A stretch of 64,000 nucleotides of DNA from Candidatus Saccharimonadota bacterium. GTDB taxonomy: Bacteria > Patescibacteriota > Saccharimonadia > Saccharimonadales > Saccharimonadaceae. Every line of letters begins with the position of its first letter. Position 1 is the stretch's first letter. Where the stretch lies: NCBI GenBank assembly GCA_009783235.1, contig WRHN01000002.1, positions 124,001 to 188,000 on the forward strand, given 5' to 3'. Positions 15,957 to 50,317 of the stretch are shown piece by piece. The notes beneath the pieces are model-generated. The model worked only from the letters and a program-made list of their open reading frames with translations, did no database searches and had not been told where the DNA came from. The position numbers and the translations under genes were made by a program.

Positions 15957-18206
15957 GTGAGAATAAAATCAAGTGTCACCTTTCTGAAGCGAACTACGTG
16001 TATCGTATCAAGTATGGCTCTAAGGGGTGTTTTGAAGTTGAAAGATCTTGCAATCAGTATTGCCAAATTCTCGGTTCGACTGCTCAAGTTTATATATGCG
16101 ATATCGCTACCCATTAGCTTCTTGATAGTTCTGACGACAGTCGTGATTTTAGTAAAAATGGCTAATTTTGGTGAGCTTAGCAAAGACTATTCGGATATAT
16201 TTCTAACTACGCTGGGGGCAATCTTAACCGTGTATGGCATTATGTTTAGCATTATTCTTATACCCGTCAGTCACATTGCCTCTCAATATTCGCCGAGGTT
16301 CTTGGTTCATATTGTTAGAGATAAGGTCTATTGGCTAATAAGTCTATTCGCAGTTATGGCCATTATGTACAATTTGGCTTTTGGTAATATAGGCGGCTCA
16401 GTCGAAATCTTCATTGGGTCAGTAATCTTACTAGCTTACTTCTTTGTGCTATTAGTGGTTGGGCTTGTTCACACCATCAGAATAATGAATCCTAAAAACA
16501 GTATTCTCCGTCCAGAAAAAAGGCGAGCCAAGCGCGTAATCCGCAGATATTTCAGGTCTAATTATCGCAAAAAATACAAATTGTTTAAGGGCTCGAGAAA
16601 AAATAGACCGAACGCCGATGAATTAATATACAACACTGATAATAATGAACTCACAGACAAAATAGAAAAACTCATTCTGCCATTAAGGGATGTTACGATG
16701 CGTGCCATAAAAAGTAATCGCTTGGAGGAGACCGTTGACGGAATCGATGCTATTACAAGTGTAGTTGAGGAGTACATTGTCGGACGCAGAAAATATCAAA
16801 CTCAGAGAGAGAACCTGCTGACTTTTTTAGCAACTGAATTTGAGTCGTTTAGAAACGAATCAATAAAAAGTGGTATGGAAATACAGGTTCATCCTGAAAT
16901 TATTCGCTCACTACTATCTATCTCAAATACGATTTTAGAGAAAACTGAAATTAAGAAAACTTATTATCGCAATTCGAATGACCTGCTACTTTTCCCAGTG
17001 AAAGGTATTTATGAGATTAGCATTGCGAACATTGCGAACCAAAATTCTTACTCTCCGATTCGGTCAGTGACGGCACTAAGGGATATCGGCATTAAGGCGG
17101 CGGACTTAGGATATATTCAGTCCACATATGATATTGTCGGAAAGTTGAAATATATTGTTGTACTGTATTCAGCAATGCGCAGCCTACACTTTGTTAGATC
17201 TGCTGCACTAGACTCAATGAAGCAGATATTGCTGCATATCATAAATAATACGGAGTCAACTAGCCTGCGTTGTCAGCGCGACTACTCAACAGGCGAATGT
17301 ATAGATAAGATGTATGAAGCCTCATCAGAGTATCTGAAATCAAAGATATCTGGGGATATGTTTGAGGATGATTCACTGATACCAATAACTGGCTATATCC
17401 TAGGAAGTGATAATAATATTGGTATATCCGAAGTTGTTGCTAACTTAATATACAGAGGTAATATAGATGATAGAATTGCTATCTTCGATTACAAGTTGAT
17501 GGGGGACATCAATGAAAAAATATACTCGCGATTACTGTATCAAATGATGAGCAGTACTAATCATGAAGCTGCAAAGGAGCACCTGCTCGAGACGATCTAC
17601 AGATCGCAAATATATTTATTATCGGTATTTGTGGCAAAAATTAGAAAAAGCTTGTTAATGGATGGAAGGACTGTACCTAAAAATATCAGTGAGGACTTTA
17701 AACAACTAACCTTCACTTACTTCGTAGATGTTGTAGATATACTTTTAAGGCACTTCGTTAGACAGAAAAGAAATCACTACACACAGGATGACTTTTGCGA
17801 TGTAATATTCTCCCTATTTTTCATTTGCATAGAATATCGCAATCATCTTGATGTCGGTGACCGAAACTTGGCAGATATTCTGTATGGAAAGATTAAAGAT
17901 GCACATGGGGATTACAAGAAACGACTACCTTTAGATGGAGATGAGACATTCTATAAATATATACGATTGTCTAATCAAATATTTGATAAGTTCGATCATA
18001 AATACTCAAAGTTTACTAGTGTGCCAAAGGTTGTTGATGACTCAACGATGTTTTATGGTGTGAGAAGTGGCGGAATACCCATGAATAAACACTCGCTTGG
18101 TAGGCCCGGTTGGCGAATAATTGATAACTTAGCATATATAGACCAGTCCTTGTATGCGGAGTTAAACAATAAGCTATTCGGCGCAGACAAGACAGACTTT
18201 TTCTAG
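15957..18206 (+). CDS. DUF2254-like multi-pass membrane protein with large cytosolic domain
   Basis: A 749-residue protein with four predicted membrane helices between about residues 45 and 178. The sequence after helix 2, 'SHIASQYSPRFLVHIVRD', resembles the signature of DUF2254 predicted membrane proteins. The rest (about residues 190-749) is a long, mostly helical, Ile/Asn/Lys-rich soluble region without a motif I recognise. GTG 15957 lies 6 bp after an extended -10 TGCTACAAT, matching the leaderless pattern; a start at the in-frame ATG 16014 is possible. The region is more AT-rich than the flanks, which supports horizontal origin. It may be an effector or stress protein of the element; function unknown. 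Confidence 0.7.
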   Translation: MRIKSSVTFLKRTTCIVSSMALRGVLKLKDLAISIAKFSVRLLKFIYAISLPISFLIVLTTVVILVKMANFGELSKDYSDIFLTTLGAILTVYGIMFSIILIPVSHIASQYSPRFLVHIVRDKVYWLISLFAVMAIMYNLAFGNIGGSVEIFIGSVILLAYFFVLLVVGLVHTIRIMNPKNSILRPEKRRAKRVIRRYFRSNYRKKYKLFKGSRKNRPNADELIYNTDNNELTDKIEKLILPLRDVTMRAIKSNRLEETVDGIDAITSVVEEYIVGRRKYQTQRENLLTFLATEFESFRNESIKSGMEIQVHPEIIRSLLSISNTILEKTEIKKTYYRNSNDLLLFPVKGIYEISIANIANQNSYSPIRSVTALRDIGIKAADLGYIQSTYDIVGKLKYIVVLYSAMRSLHFVRSAALDSMKQILLHIINNTESTSLRCQRDYSTGECIDKMYEASSEYLKSKISGDMFEDDSLIPITGYILGSDNNIGISEVVANLIYRGNIDDRIAIFDYKLMGDINEKIYSRLLYQMMSSTNHEAAKEHLLETIYRSQIYLLSVFVAKIRKSLLMDGRTVPKNISEDFKQLTFTYFVDVVDILLRHFVRQKRNHYTQDDFCDVIFSLFFICIEYRNHLDVGDRNLADILYGKIKDAHGDYKKRLPLDGDETFYKYIRLSNQIFDKFDHKYSKFTSVPKVVDDSTMFYGVRSGGIPMNKHSLGRPGWRIIDNLAYIDQSLYAELNNKLFGADKTDFF

Positions 18207-18270
18207 TCGCTCACCTTTCTCGCTCTTTCCCCTAGACTTCCCAAGCCTCTTGCGGTACCTTGTCCTTGCT

Positions 18271-19701
18271 ATGAAAGAAATGCAAGAAAACACCAGTTCC
18301 GACCAAGGAACGACAGACTTGATGCCACAAGACGCATCAGGACTGAAATATTGCCTATATGCTCGCAAGTCAACTGAGCAAGATGAACGGCAGGCGATGT
18401 CAATTGAATCGCAAATCAAGGAAATGAAAGAGTTGGCGAAACGTGAAGGATTGTATGTCGCTGAGATCAAGCGCGAAAGCCACTCAGCCAAAGAGTCAGG
18501 GCTGAGGCCAGTATTCAACGAGATGATTACTGAGCTGAAAGCCAACATCGCCAGCACAGTAGTTGCGAGCCCCGGAAGTATCGAGTCAGCTATGAGTATA
18601 GGCGGTAAGTTCAACGCCATACTAACTTGGGCGCCAGATCGTTTGGCTCGAAATGCTGGAGATCTAGGCAGCTTAGTCGACCTGATGGATCAGAAAAAAC
18701 TTATCAAGATACGAACCTTCACCCAAGAATTTAAGGATGACCCAAACTCTAAGTTCCTCCTGATGATCCTCGGCTCACAAGCTAAACTTGAGAACGACAA
18801 CCGAGGGCTTAGTATTAAGCGAGGCGTGAGAGCTAAGTGCGAATCAGGTTGGCGACCAGGGCCAGCTCCACTTGGATATATGAATCGGAGTTTCAATGGG
18901 CAGAAAGACATCATAGTGGACCCGGATAGAGCGCCAGTCATTAAAGAACTATTTGAACGGACTGCCCAGGGCATGACAGGCAGAAAAGCCCTCGCCTGGC
19001 TAAATAATGAAGTAAAGTTCACTTCCAAAGCTGGTAACAAGCTATCTCTCAGTATGCTTTATTTAATACTGAATAACCCCTTCTATTACGGAGAGTTTGA
19101 GTACCCAGCCGGATCAGGTACCATGTGGCCGGGCAAACATAAACCGATCGTCACAAAGGAACTATGGCAACAAATACAGGATCAGAAACGGGATTGGACG
19201 AACAAGATAGTCTGGGGATCGAAACAGTATGCTTTCAAGAATCTATTCGTCTGCGGTAGTTGCGGCGGAACTTTCACGGCAACCGATTGCTTCAGTCAGA
19301 AGAAAGACGGCACATTCACAAGACGAGTCTACTACCACTGCACAAAGATGGTAGATCCGAACTGCAAAGAACGCAGAATGAGAGAGGATGAAATACTGGA
19401 ACAGCTGACACAATTCTTCCTAGATAACGTCGGCAAGATTAGAATAACTGACGAATTACGGAAGACTATAACTAGATACAAAGACCTAGCCGAATATACA
19501 CTCAGACGGCACAATGTCGAGAAGATCATAGATGACCCACTGGGCGAATATGCCAACTTCATCTTCCAGCATGGATCGTATGCCGAGCAAACTAAGCTAG
19601 TTGAGAATATCCACACCGCCTTTGTCATCAGAGACAAGAAGATGAGGGTAAATGAGAATCTGATGCGACCTGCGGTTAGACAGGCGCAAGCTGTAGCGTA
19701 A
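18271..19701 (+). CDS. Large serine recombinase (element integrase)
   Basis: A 476-residue site-specific recombinase. Resolvase domain: YARKSTEQDE with nucleophile Ser34, then APDRLARN in the E-helix region, and 'LDNRGLSIKRG'-type sequence. The recombinase domain follows (PLGYMNR, residues ~200-290), then a zinc ribbon with CGSCGG near residue 327 and later Cys residues (YHC, NCK), and a short C-terminal helical region. ATG 18271 was chosen over a TTG seven codons upstream; ATG 18280 is also possible. An insertion of ~22 residues (about 91-112, 'ASTVVASPGSIESAM') interrupts the usual 'ELKAGKFNAIL' strand. It lies at the right end of the element, as expected for an integrase, and is followed by a terminator. 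Confidence 0.88.
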   Translation: MKEMQENTSSDQGTTDLMPQDASGLKYCLYARKSTEQDERQAMSIESQIKEMKELAKREGLYVAEIKRESHSAKESGLRPVFNEMITELKANIASTVVASPGSIESAMSIGGKFNAILTWAPDRLARNAGDLGSLVDLMDQKKLIKIRTFTQEFKDDPNSKFLLMILGSQAKLENDNRGLSIKRGVRAKCESGWRPGPAPLGYMNRSFNGQKDIIVDPDRAPVIKELFERTAQGMTGRKALAWLNNEVKFTSKAGNKLSLSMLYLILNNPFYYGEFEYPAGSGTMWPGKHKPIVTKELWQQIQDQKRDWTNKIVWGSKQYAFKNLFVCGSCGGTFTATDCFSQKKDGTFTRRVYYHCTKMVDPNCKERRMREDEILEQLTQFFLDNVGKIRITDELRKTITRYKDLAEYTLRRHNVEKIIDDPLGEYANFIFQHGSYAEQTKLVENIHTAFVIRDKKMRVNENLMRPAVRQAQAVA

Positions 19702-30747: not shown

Positions 30748-32196
30748 TCATTGCTTCCTCTCAAACAATACCTTGCTAAGCTCGCCTACCGACGCGCCGC
30801 CAAATATGTCTTTAATTTTCTCGGCCGTATCTGGCAAAAACGGCGTCAATAGTTCGCCGACCTGTCTCAAACCAGTTGCCAAATAGTTCATCACCGCCGC
30901 TACTTCCGCCTGTTTTGAACTATCTTTATTCAATTCCCACGGTTTTTGCTCGTCAATGTACTGATTCAAATGCTGAACCAATTTCCATATTTCTTCCAGC
31001 GCCAAATCAAATCGCAGCTCGTCCATTTGTTGAGAAAACCTGGTCGAATCCCAGACGAAATCTTTTGACTTAGCAATTTTACCGCCCGCAAAACGCGTTA
31101 TCATATTGGAACTGCGCGAAACTAAATTGCCCAAAGTGTTGGCCAAATCACTATTATAAGAGTTTTTAAACCGCTCTGGCGTATAGTCGCCGTCGTCGAA
31201 AGTCGGAACATAGCGCAAGAAGAAATAGCGAAAAGCGTCGCAGCCATACTCATCAATAATGTCCAGCGGCGAAATCGCGTTGCCCTTAGATTTGCTCAAT
31301 TTGTCGCCGCTAAGATTAACGAAGCCATGCACCAGCAATTTTTCAGGCAGCTCAAGTCCCAGCCCCAGCAAAATCGCTGGCCAAATAACCGCATGAAACC
31401 GCAGAATATCTTTGCCCAAAACTTCAATTTCAGCTGGCCAAACTTTTCTGGTCTCCAGATTTTTCCACCAGTCCTCTAGCTTAGCACCCTGGTCAAGCAC
31501 CGTAATATAATTCGACAGCGCGTCAACCCACACGTACATCACCTGGGTTTCATCGCCCGGCACCGGCACTCCCCAGCTCAACTTTTCAACCGAACGGCTA
31601 ATCGAGACGTCTTGCGCGCCGTTTTTTATCAACTCGCGAATTTCCTTACCCCGCCACTCAGGCACAATCTGCTCAGAGAATCGTCGTATTTCCTCAGTAA
31701 ACTGACTGACCTTCAAAAAGTAATTTTCGTCTTCAACTTTTTCGAGCTTGGCGTGGTTCGGGCACCGATAGTTCATCGCTTTCGCCTCGGTTTCTGTCAC
31801 AAAACCTTCGCAGCCCACGCAGTACCAACCTTCGTATTTAGCTTTATATATCATACCGGCGGCGTCCAGTCGGCGCCAAACTTCCTGCACTCTCAACATG
31901 TGCTCGGCGTCGGTAGTGCGCACAAACTGAGTATGACTAATGTTCATTTGCCGCAAAAAATCTTGAAAAATCGGCGTTAGCTGGTCGACAAATTCTTGCG
32001 GGGTTTGATTCTCGGCCTTAGCTTTTTCGGCAATCTTGGTGCCATGCTCGTCCAGGCCAGCCGAAAACAGCACTTCGTGGCCCTGGTTTTTTTGATAGCG
32101 AAACCACACGTCCGCCAGCAAATAGTCCATGGCGTGGCCAATGTGGGGCTGGGCGTTGGTGTATGGAATGGCGGTAGTGATATATTTAGTTTTCAT
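30748..32196 (-). CDS. metG: Methionyl-tRNA synthetase
   Basis: Charges tRNA-Met. The 482-residue class I enzyme has the HIGH-type motif in YTNAQPHIGHAMDYL, a zinc-binding connective peptide with CVGC and YRCPNH, and the KMSKS-type DKLSKSKGN. It ends after the anticodon-binding helical domain, with no C-terminal EMAP-like dimerisation domain. ATG 32196 lies 7 bp after TAAACT preceded by TGC, suggesting a leaderless mRNA. It diverges from the left pilin-like gene. Confidence 0.95.
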   Translation of the reverse strand: MKTKYITTAIPYTNAQPHIGHAMDYLLADVWFRYQKNQGHEVLFSAGLDEHGTKIAEKAKAENQTPQEFVDQLTPIFQDFLRQMNISHTQFVRTTDAEHMLRVQEVWRRLDAAGMIYKAKYEGWYCVGCEGFVTETEAKAMNYRCPNHAKLEKVEDENYFLKVSQFTEEIRRFSEQIVPEWRGKEIRELIKNGAQDVSISRSVEKLSWGVPVPGDETQVMYVWVDALSNYITVLDQGAKLEDWWKNLETRKVWPAEIEVLGKDILRFHAVIWPAILLGLGLELPEKLLVHGFVNLSGDKLSKSKGNAISPLDIIDEYGCDAFRYFFLRYVPTFDDGDYTPERFKNSYNSDLANTLGNLVSRSSNMITRFAGGKIAKSKDFVWDSTRFSQQMDELRFDLALEEIWKLVQHLNQYIDEQKPWELNKDSSKQAEVAAVMNYLATGLRQVGELLTPFLPDTAEKIKDIFGGASVGELSKVLFERKQ

Positions 32197-32265
32197 AAGT
32201 AGTAGTTTAGCACATTTTGGACGTTTCTCTTAACTCAGACCGTCGCGGCGACGGCCGGCGCACGT

Positions 32266-32471
32266 TTTTAATAAACAAAGGGAGGGAAAATGAATAAATT
32301 AGTTAAAAAAGAAAAGGGCTTCACCATTATCGAAGTTGTTTTAGTCTTGGCTATTGCCGGACTTATCTTCATGGTAGTATTCTTGGCAGTGCCAGGTCTA
32401 CAAAGAAGTCAACGTGATACACAGCGTAGACAAGACGTTGGACGTCTGATATCAACTATTACGAGTATTCA
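32266..32471 (+). repeat. Left arm of a perfect 206-bp inverted repeat
   Basis: Identical, base for base, to the reverse complement of 33230-33435. It covers 24 bp of leader with the GGGAGGG ribosome site plus the first 61 codons of the pilin-like gene. The identity stops abruptly on both sides. Confidence 0.97.
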
Positions 32472-32814
32472 AGGCAACACTAGGGGCCAAATACCAGCAG
32501 ACATGGGTGATTATCAAGAGGATCCAGGCGGCAACCACGGCACAGTCTATGCGGAGTTAGTCTCTGGCGGCAGTAGGTTTAGCGACCCCTCGACTCAGGG
32601 CGCATATCAAATAGTAGCTATAGCTGATGGCGCTGACTTAACGACCGCTAATGGTGCGATGACTGCTGTTGGTCAGTTCGTTATAGCTATTAACGCTTCT
32701 TGTGCTGATAACCCATCAGCAGCGACGCCATTCCAGGCTTCGGGCGGTGCTAACAATGCTTCCTTTGCGGTAGCGATGCAGATGGAAGGTAGCGTTTATT
32801 GCCAAAACGGTTAG
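32290..32814 (+). CDS. Type IV pilin-like protein, left copy
   Basis: A 174-residue prepilin: basic leader MNKLVKKEKG, cleavage before Phe in GFTIIEVV with Glu5 of the mature protein, a ~25-residue hydrophobic helix, then 'RSQRDTQRRQDVGRLISTI' and a variable C-terminal domain ending in a Cys pair (NASCAD and VYCQNG). The first 61 residues are identical to the convergent gene at 32890; the C-terminal parts diverge but keep 'GGSRF.DPS.QG' and 'GANNASFAV'. Only a weak promoter is visible; a hairpin (32240-32254) lies just upstream. Probably a silent or lowly expressed partner of the right copy (inference). Confidence 0.88.
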   Translation: MNKLVKKEKGFTIIEVVLVLAIAGLIFMVVFLAVPGLQRSQRDTQRRQDVGRLISTITSIQGNTRGQIPADMGDYQEDPGGNHGTVYAELVSGGSRFSDPSTQGAYQIVAIADGADLTTANGAMTAVGQFVIAINASCADNPSAATPFQASGGANNASFAVAMQMEGSVYCQNG

Positions 32815-32828
32815 TTAGAACCTGAACT

Positions 32829-32870
32829 GTATTTTAAAAATCCGCCGTTGACGGCGGATTTTTAAAATAC
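32829..32870. terminator. Bidirectional terminator between the convergent pilin genes
   Basis: Perfect inverted repeat with 20-bp arms around TG (GTATTTTAAAAATCCGCCGT and its complement). The A- and T-rich flanks let it work in both directions. Its centre coincides within 1 bp with the centre of the 206-bp repeats. Confidence 0.92.
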
Positions 32871-32889
32871 AACCTAGCTAAATTAAATA

Positions 32890-33411
32890 TTAGCCCTGCT
32901 GACAGTAGTAACCACCCTCGGTCACCATACCAACAGCAAATGATGCATTATTAGCACCACCAGCTTCTACGAAAGGATCAGCAGCACTAGTACCACAGTT
33001 AGCATTGATAGCTATAGCAAAATCACCTGCGTTATCCAGGCCAGCGTTGTTATAGCTGGTCTCGCCAGAAGCAAAGACAGCTACAACATTGTAAAGGCCT
33101 TGGTTAGATGGGTCATTGAAACGACTACCGCCAGCTTGCAGTTCATCGATTACCTGACCGCCAGCTTGGTAAGGTACGACACCTTCAGTACCGCCTTCAC
33201 TACCAGGTATATCACCTCGGTTGTTTGACTGAATACTCGTAATAGTTGATATCAGACGTCCAACGTCTTGTCTACGCTGTGTATCACGTTGACTTCTTTG
33301 TAGACCTGGCACTGCCAAGAATACTACCATGAAGATAAGTCCGGCAATAGCCAAGACTAAAACAACTTCGATAATGGTGAAGCCCTTTTCTTTTTTAACT
33401 AATTTATTCAT
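32890..33411 (-). CDS. Type IV pilin-like protein, right copy
   Basis: A 173-residue prepilin sharing the first 61 residues exactly with the left copy: leader, GFTIIEVV cleavage site, hydrophobic helix and start of the globular part. The C-terminal domain differs ('GSEGGTEGVVPYQAGGQVID', then 'GGSRFNDPSNQGLYNVV') and ends with NANCGT and YYCQQG, likely a disulfide pair. GGGAGGG lies 5 nt before ATG. A good promoter sits just outside the repeat (33452-33479), so this copy is probably the expressed one. Assembly genes (pilB, pilC, pilD) are not in the window. Confidence 0.88.
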   Translation of the reverse strand: MNKLVKKEKGFTIIEVVLVLAIAGLIFMVVFLAVPGLQRSQRDTQRRQDVGRLISTITSIQSNNRGDIPGSEGGTEGVVPYQAGGQVIDELQAGGSRFNDPSNQGLYNVVAVFASGETSYNNAGLDNAGDFAIAINANCGTSAADPFVEAGGANNASFAVGMVTEGGYYCQQG

Positions 33412-33435
33412 TTTCCCTCCCTTTGTTTATTAAAA
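33230..33435 (-). repeat. Right arm of the 206-bp inverted repeat
   Basis: Exact reverse complement of 32266-32471. The segment between the arms (32472-33229) carries both variable pilin tails and the shared terminator; recombination between arms would exchange the tails. Confidence 0.97.
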
Positions 33436-33451
33436 TTAGTTTATAACGTAC

Positions 33452-33479
33452 AGTCTAGCAGAAATTTTTCAAAAAGCAA
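33452..33479 (-). promoter_or_regulatory. Promoter of the right pilin-like gene
   Basis: Minus strand: -35 TTGCTT (33474-33479), 16-bp spacer, -10 TAGACT (33452-33457) with an extended TGC. It lies just outside the inverted repeat, so it stays in place whichever tail is connected to it. Confidence 0.6.
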
Positions 33480-33494
33480 GTGTTTAAAAAATTT

Positions 33495-34202
33495 CTAAAA
33501 ATCTGCGTTGGTGTGCACCGCCACGACGTCGTCAAGCTCATCAAGAGCGTCCAGCAACTTGAGCAGTTTTTCTTGAGTGGATTGATCGGCGAGCGGCACT
33601 TGGTTTTTGGCAACATACTCCAGGCCGAAATCTTTAATTTCTAGATTGGCATTCAATAAGTTCTGGCGCACTTCGGCCAGTTTTTTGTCTTCGGTATAGA
33701 TTATAATTTCGCCGTCTTCTTCGTTGGCGTCCTCAGCCCCAGCATCAAGCACAGCCAACAGCGCATCTTCACCAGCGGCCGCCACCCGAATAACACCCTT
33801 GCGATCAAAATTAAAAGTTACCGAACCAGGCTCGGCTATGTTGCCACCATTTTTGTTAAGAGTGGAGCGGACATCTGGGAAAGTACGGTTGCGATTATCT
33901 GTCGCAGCCTCGATAATAATTGCGGTACCACCTTGGCCGTAAGCTTCGTAAACAACCTCCTCCAACTGAGCGGCCGATTTGTCGGCCACGCGCGCAATGG
34001 CTCGCTCAATATTAGTATTCGGCATATTAGCCGCCTTAGCTTTTTCAATCGCCAACGCCAAAGCCGGATTCATGGACGGGTCTGCCCCACCACGAGCCGC
34101 AATGGCTATTTGGTTGCCAATTTTAGTAAAAATCGCGCCGCGCTTGGCGTCGTTTGCGCCCTTGGCGCGCTTAATTGTTGACCATTTTGAATGTCCTGAC
34201 AT
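33495..34202 (-). CDS. YebC/PmpR family protein
   Basis: A 235-residue protein of the TACO1/YebC family, described as transcriptional regulators and, more recently, as factors easing ribosome stalling at proline runs. It begins with the hallmark MSGHSKWSTIKRAKGANDAKRG and contains 'NMPNTNIERAI' and 'YEAYGQGGTAIIIEAATDNRNRT'. Extended -10 TGCTATAAT (hexamer 34209-34214) ends 6 bp before ATG 34202, so the mRNA is probably leaderless. No ruvC neighbour here, although ruvC is present at 50360. Confidence 0.93.
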   Translation of the reverse strand: MSGHSKWSTIKRAKGANDAKRGAIFTKIGNQIAIAARGGADPSMNPALALAIEKAKAANMPNTNIERAIARVADKSAAQLEEVVYEAYGQGGTAIIIEAATDNRNRTFPDVRSTLNKNGGNIAEPGSVTFNFDRKGVIRVAAAGEDALLAVLDAGAEDANEEDGEIIIYTEDKKLAEVRQNLLNANLEIKDFGLEYVAKNQVPLADQSTQEKLLKLLDALDELDDVVAVHTNADF

Positions 34203-38230: not shown

Positions 38231-39280
38231 TTATTCGTCTTCTTTCTGTACTTTGTCGCGCACTTTTTTCTCAACCTCAGCCAACAACTTAGTGTCCGAC
38301 TTCAACAGCTCTTTAACAGCTTCGCGACCCTGACCAAGTTTCATATTCTTGTCGCCCTCGCCGTAGTCAAACCAGGCGCCAGATTTGTTAATGATACCCT
38401 TGTCAACCGCCAAATCAATAACGTCGCCAATCTTAGAAATACCTTCGTTGAACATGATGTCAAACTCTGCCGTACGAAACGGCGGCGCAATTTTATTCTT
38501 AACAATCTTTACCTTGACGCGGTTGCCGGTAATGTCGTCGCCCTCTTTAATTTGACCGATTCGGCGAATATCCATGCGCAAAGACGCATAAAATTTCAGG
38601 GCGTTGCCGCCCGTGGTGGTTTCTGGATTGCCGAACATGACACCAATTTTCATACGAATCTGGTTGATGAATATAACTGTGGCCTTTGATTTATTAATAA
38701 TGCCAGTTAGTTTGCGCATAGCTTGGCTCATCAATCGCGCCTGCAGACCCATTTGAGCGTCACCCATGTCACCGTCAATTTCGGCCTGCGGCACCAAAGC
38801 TGCCACCGAGTCTAGCACAATAACATCTACCGCGTTCGAGCGCACCAAAGTTTCTAGAATCTCCAGCGCCTGTTCGCCGCTGTCGGGTTGCGAGACCAAA
38901 AGACTCGTGGTATCGACGCCTATTTTCTTAGCATAAGCCGGGTCAAGCGCATGTTCCGCATCGATAAACGCTGCTGTGCCACCTTTTTTCTGAGCTTCTG
39001 CGATAGCGTGCAATGTTAAGGTAGTTTTGCCAGAACTTTCCGGGCCATAAATTTCCACTATGCGCCCTTTGGGATAACCACCGCCCATCGCCAAATCTAG
39101 AGAAAGCGCCCCCGACGGATAGGTTTCCACGTCGACATTGTAAGCATCGCCCAGCTTCATAATTGAACCGGCACCAAACTGCTTGGTGATTTGATCCAAC
39201 GCCAAACCAAGTGCCGCTGCCTTGCCCTCGTTGTCTTTAGATTTTTCGCCCATCACTTTGGTAGATTTTTTTGTTGCCAT
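38231..39280 (-). CDS. recA: Recombinase RecA
   Basis: Strand-exchange protein for homologous recombination and SOS. I start at ATG 39280 (349 residues) because AGGAGGG lies 7 nt upstream; a start nine codons earlier would read through it. Walker [11 protein letters not shown] near residue 72, '[15 protein letters not shown]', Walker B '[14 protein letters not shown]', loop L2 region '[18 protein letters not shown]' and a short acidic/lysine C-terminus. RecA would be the natural driver of recombination between the 206-bp pilin repeats. Confidence 0.96.
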
Positions 39281-39350
39281 TAAGACCCTCCTATTTTTGC
39301 CACCCAACTTAAATAACTATACCCCTATTTTAACATAAACTTGAATAAAA

Positions 39351-49927: not shown

Positions 49928-50317
49928 ATGCAAAAAGAAAAAGGGTTCACCGTTATTGAGCTGGCGATTGCCATAGTGGTTTTGGTGATTATTGGCGTGT
50001 TTTTCTTGGTCCAGCGTAACGACCTCGAGGTAACGGCTCGCGATCAACAACGCAAGGTCGCGATTAATAGCATATATTACAGTTTAACAGAGGTTTTTCA
50101 TAAAGAAAATGGTTTTTACCCCACATCTATCAACCATGGCAATCTCAAGAGTGTTGCTCCAGAGCTGTTTATCGACACCCAGGGCACGGCCGTTGGCGAA
50201 ATAGGCAGCGAATATTTTTACGAAGGCATTAATTGCAACTCTGACGGTAAATGCAGGGGGTTCAGACTCAGCGCCGCCCTAGAAAAAGAAGCCGAGTACA
50301 TCAGAGAAGTCAAATAA
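49928..50317 (+). CDS. Type IV pilin-like protein, short
   Basis: A 129-residue prepilin or pseudopilin: MQKEKG, then FTVIELAIAIVVLVIIGVFF with mature Glu5 and hydrophobic helix, then 'DQQRKVAINSIYYSLTEVFHKENGFYPTSI', a pattern usual in minor pilins/pseudopilins, and a C-terminal Cys pair (NCNSDGKC). It is unlike the pilins at 32290 and 32890 outside the N-terminus. TAAGAT ends 6 bp before ATG 49928. Confidence 0.85.
   Translation: MQKEKGFTVIELAIAIVVLVIIGVFFLVQRNDLEVTARDQQRKVAINSIYYSLTEVFHKENGFYPTSINHGNLKSVAPELFIDTQGTAVGEIGSEYFYEGINCNSDGKCRGFRLSAALEKEAEYIREVK

Follow-up and report, generated by a model that had tools for sequence, protein, structure and literature searches.

Identical 5′ parts in two facing type IV pilin genes of a Saccharimonadota bacterium: probable homogenisation by recombination between paralogues

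Introduction

Pilin inversion in Moraxella involves two opposed pilin genes, which match in their 5′ parts but differ in their 3′ parts. It has been described, together with piv, for Moraxella bovis and M. lacunata (PMC4073114). In Neisseria the pilin paralogues pilE and pilS exchange sequence by RecA-dependent gene conversion, and the pilS copies have neither promoter nor ribosome site; in the vsa system of Mycoplasma pulmonis, inversion places a different tail behind the promoter and the amino-terminal coding DNA (PMC4534519). Here we analyse two facing pilin genes which carry the arms of a perfect inverted repeat in a stretch of 64,000 nucleotides (hereafter the window; contig WRHN01000002.1, positions 124,001–188,000) from a Candidatus Saccharimonadota bacterium.

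Among the Saccharibacteria, Nanosynbacter lyticus TM7x possesses two type IV pili; pilA1 could not be deleted, pilA2 contributes to host binding, and a recAX operon is part of one pilus locus (PMC12206443). The type IV pili of cultured TM7x matter for host binding and survival, as described in the same source. A hypervariable repeat gene is reported for a gracilibacterium (PMC6851277). Literature word searches, whose scope excluded most subscription journals, found nothing that pairs Saccharibacteria, pilin and gene conversion, or Patescibacteria, pilin and phase variation; Saccharibacteria and phase variation co-occurred only as single mentions of each term.

The source genome (G000) is a six-contig draft of 677,568 bp, is 97% complete and is the only genome of its genus in the set analysed. 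An initial annotation, made from the sequence of the window, had taken the locus for a candidate invertible pilin switch.

Results

The inverted repeat and its two pilin genes

The two arms are reverse complements of each other at 206 of 206 positions, as initially annotated, and end abruptly on both sides (Table 1). No other exact direct or inverted repeat of at least 40 nt is present in the 64-kb window, and the repeat is real and not due to chance. In each pilin gene the arm extends from 24 nt 5′ of the ATG through 60 full codons and 2 nt of codon 61 (61 codons had been counted initially, which is right within one codon); ribosome site and complete N-terminal part are identical in both copies. 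Outside the arms the similarity stops. Inward, the genes run on as diverged homologues, with 56 of 112 aligned residues identical in the heads, in agreement with the annotated difference of the C-terminal domains. The hairpin between the stop codons is probably a bidirectional terminator common to both genes.

Both convergent open reading frames (ORFs) exceed the Pfam gathering cut-off of the N_methyl family PF07963, which bears out their description as facing pilin-like genes. The motif GFTIIE (N_methyl motif GFTxxE) and a cysteine pair (C138 and C171) are invariant across 26 aligned pilin sequences. An AlphaFold2 model of pilin A, aligned with the 25 other sequences, predicts a helix (residues 13–63) and a small four-strand head, with a mean pLDDT of 79.3. 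The end of the arm in codon 61 coincides with the predicted end of the alpha-1 helix at residue 63. Since the arm covers the leader and the predicted helix, leader and alpha-1 helix make up the identical part of the pilins, and the head is what diverges; the predicted recombination border thus falls between pilin helix and head.

On the basis of their sequences pilin A and pilin B are classified as paralogous PilA-type type IV pilins. It counts against this assignment that a Foldseek search of the model against the Protein Data Bank (PDB) gave no match at E ≤ 0.001; a profile search of PDB sequences gave one weak match, covering only the N-terminal part, to the geopilin domain of 9egp (E 0.0044). 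The genome contains seven N_methyl matches, and only A and B look PilA-like by length and motif. A small pilin-like ORF of 129 aa at 49928–50317 has a borderline N_methyl match, which was over the cut-off in one search and just under it in another.

Table 1 Features of the pilin locus and its surroundings (positions within the window; E values refer to the Pfam models named)
Feature	Position	Strand	Evidence and remarks
Large serine recombinase	18250-19701		Resolvase, Recombinase and zinc-ribbon domains
metG, left flank	30748-32196	-	PF09334, 3.1e-103
Upstream region of pilin A, from metG start (opposite strand) to arm	32197-32265	+	Best promoter score 5.4, 68% of 300 shuffles as good; promoter not recognisable
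Left arm of repeat	32266-32471	+	Ribosome site, leader, alpha-1 helix
Pilin A	32290-32814	+	ORF, 174 aa; PF07963, 1.4e-05; extra inverted copy, metG side
Segment invertible by arm-arm crossover	32472-33229	no strand	758 bp; two diverged heads and terminator
Hairpin between stop codons	32828-32871	no strand	20-bp stem; dG -28.6 kcal/mol, z -9.06; terminator-like on both strands
Pilin B	32890-33411	-	ORF, 173 aa; PF07963, 1.3e-05; downstream of yebC, place and orientation as single pilin of G003
Right arm of repeat	33230-33435	-
Upstream region of pilin B	33436-33494	-	TTGCTT-16-TAGACT by eye; best promoter score 8.4, 31% of 300 shuffles as good, not significant
yebC, right flank	33495-34202	-	PF01709, 4.8e-50
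recA, likely recombinase (inferred)	38231-39307	-	PF00154, 3.2e-138

Young arms and old heads

Within codons 1–60, pilin A and pilin B show no synonymous difference (0/58 same-residue codons other than Met and Trp). In the heads, from codon 61 to the end, 36 of 55 same-residue codons differ; dS was not computable. Between G000 and G003, a genome of another genus in the same family, 30 of 45 codons differ within the same 60 codons, and thus the arm does evolve. The contrast between 0/58 in the arm and 36/55 in the heads therefore indicates that the arms recombined long after the gene split: within one gene pair the arms are young and the heads are old. Synonymous identity within the tract and many synonymous differences beyond it, the pattern by which gene conversion is recognised, were both found.

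Recent duplication, after which the heads diversified rapidly under selection while the arms did not recombine, would be in line with the facts that half of the aligned head residues differ and that the heads are surface domains. Nevertheless, we regard it as very unlikely, as the synonymous contrast goes beyond selection at the protein level and contradicts this explanation unless mutation was confined to the heads. When head A was used as query against 388 genomes of the family, the best non-self match was head B (1.4e-23), followed by a match at 6.5e-6. The heads are therefore sister paralogues which split within their own lineage, and import of a head from elsewhere was ruled out.

According to these data the arms were probably homogenised by homologous recombination between paralogues, most simply by gene conversion of the RecA type. 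The recA gene, which the initial annotation had named at 38231, was confirmed by its domain match and ends 4.8 kb past the right arm.

Shared runs in related genomes

In 169 loci scanned for recurrence, the pilin ORFs amounted to 194 distinct sequences, with possible double counting of those truncated at a locus end, and formed 102 pairs within loci. Identical in-register runs of at least 60 nt were present in 15 of the 102 pairs from ten genomes (G000, G011, G027, G079, G219, G291, G352, G374, G379 and G424), nine of which belong to the family of the source, while G079 belongs to another family of the same order. Ten of these pairs are tandem, three divergent and two, including that of G000, convergent. 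As the long runs occur mostly in tandem pairs, where inversion is impossible, the inverted orientation is unnecessary, and homogenisation suffices to account for the repeat, with no switch required.

The tandem pairs of G379 and G374 share 208 nt (heads 53%) and 175 nt (heads 50%), respectively, and a tandem trio in G011 has runs of 172, 83 and 83 nt. In the divergent pair of G352 a run of 98 nt lies inside the gene. The convergent pair of G424 shares a run located mostly upstream of the gene, and in G291 and one G424 pair the run extends well upstream. In both G352 and G424 a shared stretch within the gene is preceded by synonymous differences. The borders of the runs vary between genomes; judged from these comparisons, differing borders together with intragenic tracts correspond to the usual trace of gene conversion. 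Two copies in G226, which are 93% identical over 539 nt with the heads included, were excluded from the comparison (the genome is 3% contaminated). G079 has eleven matches to the pilin, several of them in mixed orientation within one 11-kb stretch (L154:1-11001), where the longest identical run shared between copies is 79 nt.

An assembly artefact, that is a chimaeric palindrome, is extremely improbable. The genome is a six-contig draft, and the end of contig C4 repeats a stretch of contig C1, from which it follows that the assembly breaks at repeats. However, each head lies in its own full ORF, the shared terminator fits between them, the heads are half identical, and similar patterns occur in nine other genomes. 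The 109 nt repeated at the end of C4 match exactly the beginning of a minor pilin-like gene on C1 (L171:4336-4444, L170:7903-8011) and are preceded by different sequence; they may represent either a break in the assembly or another pilin start that is repeated.

Genomic setting

In G003, yebC, a single pilin gene and metG follow each other in that order on one strand. This single pilin between the two flanking genes suggests that the place of pilin B is likely ancestral and that pilin A was added in inverted orientation, unless G003 lost a copy. For dating the duplication via the sister genus, the genus of G003 offers one genome. On contig C4 of the source genome, pilC and pilD adjoin with no PilA-type pilin between them. 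A scan of genome contigs with the pilin returned one distant relative (43%) on a contig titled Candidatus Saccharibacteria, and viral contigs searched for the pilin sequence gave no match.

Upstream regions and the possibility of inversion

Promoters were scored in 16 upstream regions with E. coli sigma-70 weights and 300 shuffles each; the rows for the first copy of G379 and the second copy of G374 were cut at the wrong start codon. The region upstream of pilin A had the second lowest score of all 16. The single pilin of G003 has a near-perfect promoter (16.0, 0/300 shuffles as good). Good promoters were also found for both G291 copies and for two of the three G011 copies, and the second copies of G219 and G027 had intermediate scores (9.0 and 9.5). 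Low scores characterised second tandem copies close behind the first gene, namely those of G379 (6.4) and G374 (4.3, from the row cut at the wrong start). The second tandem pilin of G374 (L149:1533-2030), which shares 175 nt with the first, has a GTG start just behind the first gene and no visible ribosome site; from its sequence it looks like a silent copy.

In a functional switch, a RecA-type crossover would reversibly invert positions 32472–33229, and the gene behind the better promoter on the B side would carry head A or head B in a mixed population. Indeed, inversion of this segment in silico yields two intact chimaeric ORFs, both in frame and with exchanged heads. The arms are long and in frame and stop before unlike upstream regions, the terminator is palindromic, and the promoter scores increase from pilin A (5.4) over pilin B (8.4) to the single pilin of G003 (16.0). 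The low-scoring second copies of G379 and G374 would fit the idea of a reservoir of silent heads. Nevertheless, the promoter of pilin B itself is not significant, which leaves the promoter argument weak; promoters do occur in the two copies of G291 and in two members of the G011 trio, and the long shared runs are mostly tandem (10/15). Furthermore, the single draft assembly shows one orientation only. The reads may be compatible with either orientation of the 758-bp middle between the 206-bp repeats, and the draft does not favour a single one.

Of 28 other convergent pairs, 22 have a head ending in CIDDQ towards pilC, none has such a head towards pilD, and in six the mark is absent; no exchanged head was recognised. 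Facing pilins therefore need not be a switch. These pairs, each beside pilD or pilC and most with unlike arms, represent another locus and are no test of the metG-yebC pair. For G030, the ends of two contigs, reached after pilC in one and after pilD in the other, share 123 nt of pilin arm (L068:2315-2437, L069:2024-2146), as expected of a convergent repeat.

Altogether, a functional switch is possible but appears unlikely to us. What stands of the initial proposal is the geometry, which permits a head-swapping inversion, and the presence of RecA; nothing found shows that inversion takes place or is the purpose of the repeat.

Contig breaks within pilin arms were dropped as evidence for inversion, since an assembly can stop there wherever a repeat, or variation between strains, exceeds the word length of the assembler. 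In the pilD-side copy of G030 the usual start position lacks an ATG, but one is present in frame further upstream. In G404 the last 141 nt of contig C17 recur without mismatch, on the same strand, as the first 141 nt of contig C52, and this stretch belongs to the arm (L081:1411-1551, L089:1-141); this break may stem from a second copy or from strain variation.

A further possibility would be a dedicated site-specific invertase acting on sites within the arms, as Piv does in Moraxella, whose pilin inversion with its invertase the initial annotation had named as a precedent. This precedent did not hold for the enzyme: a search of the genome (97% complete) with the IS110/Piv model PF01548 gave no match at E ≤ 0.01, a result which covers one of two IS110 models and also speaks against a switch. 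Two other recombinases would be available, a large serine recombinase in the window and one tyrosine recombinase (G000:C1:66888). The former, however, is some 12.6 kb distant and contains three domains, a set which we take to be that of integrase-type large serine recombinases; by distance and domain set it was judged unrelated to the pilin genes. Moreover, an identity of 206 bp is far longer than a recombinase site and stops at a protein-domain border. We find such an invertase scarcely credible. The serine recombinase adjoins a DUF2254 membrane protein of 749 aa (15957–18206), with which it possibly forms a small integrated element.

Discussion

The following course of events would account for the locus. 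Pilin A would have arisen as an inverted extra copy beside pilin B, and the heads would have diverged over a long time. RecA-dependent gene conversion would then have re-equalised the module of leader and alpha-1 helix, with the last exchange between the arms being recent relative to the age of the heads. The module may be identical because one secretion and filament machinery has to accommodate both subunits. Where the copies face each other, resolution of such exchanges by crossover would turn the middle segment around and thereby move each head to the other of two unlike upstream regions, through which expression might be affected.

Several points weigh against homogenisation by gene conversion. 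The sequence does not reveal the direction or the mechanism of exchange, and the same trace could also result from double crossover, inversion or template switching. The genus is represented here by one genome, and the loci compared were chosen by their match to this pilin, partly by the presence of two nearby copies, so that the rates are biased. Within the pairs of G291 and G352 head similarity is fairly high (78% and 75%), and recent duplication therefore explains more in these genomes; for G291 it may be sufficient.

A broader and more speculative idea, which we rate as rather improbable, is a head-exchange system in Saccharibacteria and relatives. It would consist of an expressed pilin and weakly or non-expressed copies, with leader and alpha-1 kept identical by RecA and heads swapped by inversion (here and probably in G030) or by conversion or deletion (in the tandem copies of G379, G374 and G011). 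If true, it would represent a diversifier for host recognition or phage escape in the candidate phyla radiation. Independent of this, a helix/head recombination border in several genomes marks where these pilins tolerate change and which loci may exchange heads within populations. If exchange is frequent, a surface-diversifying system would be present in a group for which our literature word searches, with most subscription journals outside their scope, found none; if it is infrequent, the locus would clearly exemplify a structural module that undergoes concerted evolution.

The described systems resemble the locus in different respects. Opposed pilin genes with matching 5′ and differing 3′ parts, as in Moraxella, are found in this pair. 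In contrast to Moraxella, there is no match to the Piv/IS110 model searched, the shared element is not a short site but a pair of 206-bp arms, each gene is full-length with its own ribosome site, and an inversion would be a consequence that we infer from the geometry.

With the vsa genes of M. pulmonis the locus has in common the geometry in which an N-terminal part is joined to another tail. There, site-specific inversion is reported (PMC4534519), whereas at this pair no site is shown and inversion would follow from arm-arm crossover. PilA1 and PilA2 of TM7x are likewise PilA-type lollipop pilins of a Saccharibacterium (PMC12206443). Unlike here, the consulted parts of that article report no exchange between pilin copies, and its main text is without the terms 'phase variation', 'hypervariab' and 'recombination'.

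The pilE/pilS system of Neisseria is comparable in that RecA is present here as well. The pilS copies differ from the present pair, in which there are two copies, both full-length and with a ribosome site, the promoter of pilin A not being recognisable. Furthermore, conversion in Neisseria changes the variable part of the pilin (PMC4534519), whereas here it is the constant part which would have been made alike.
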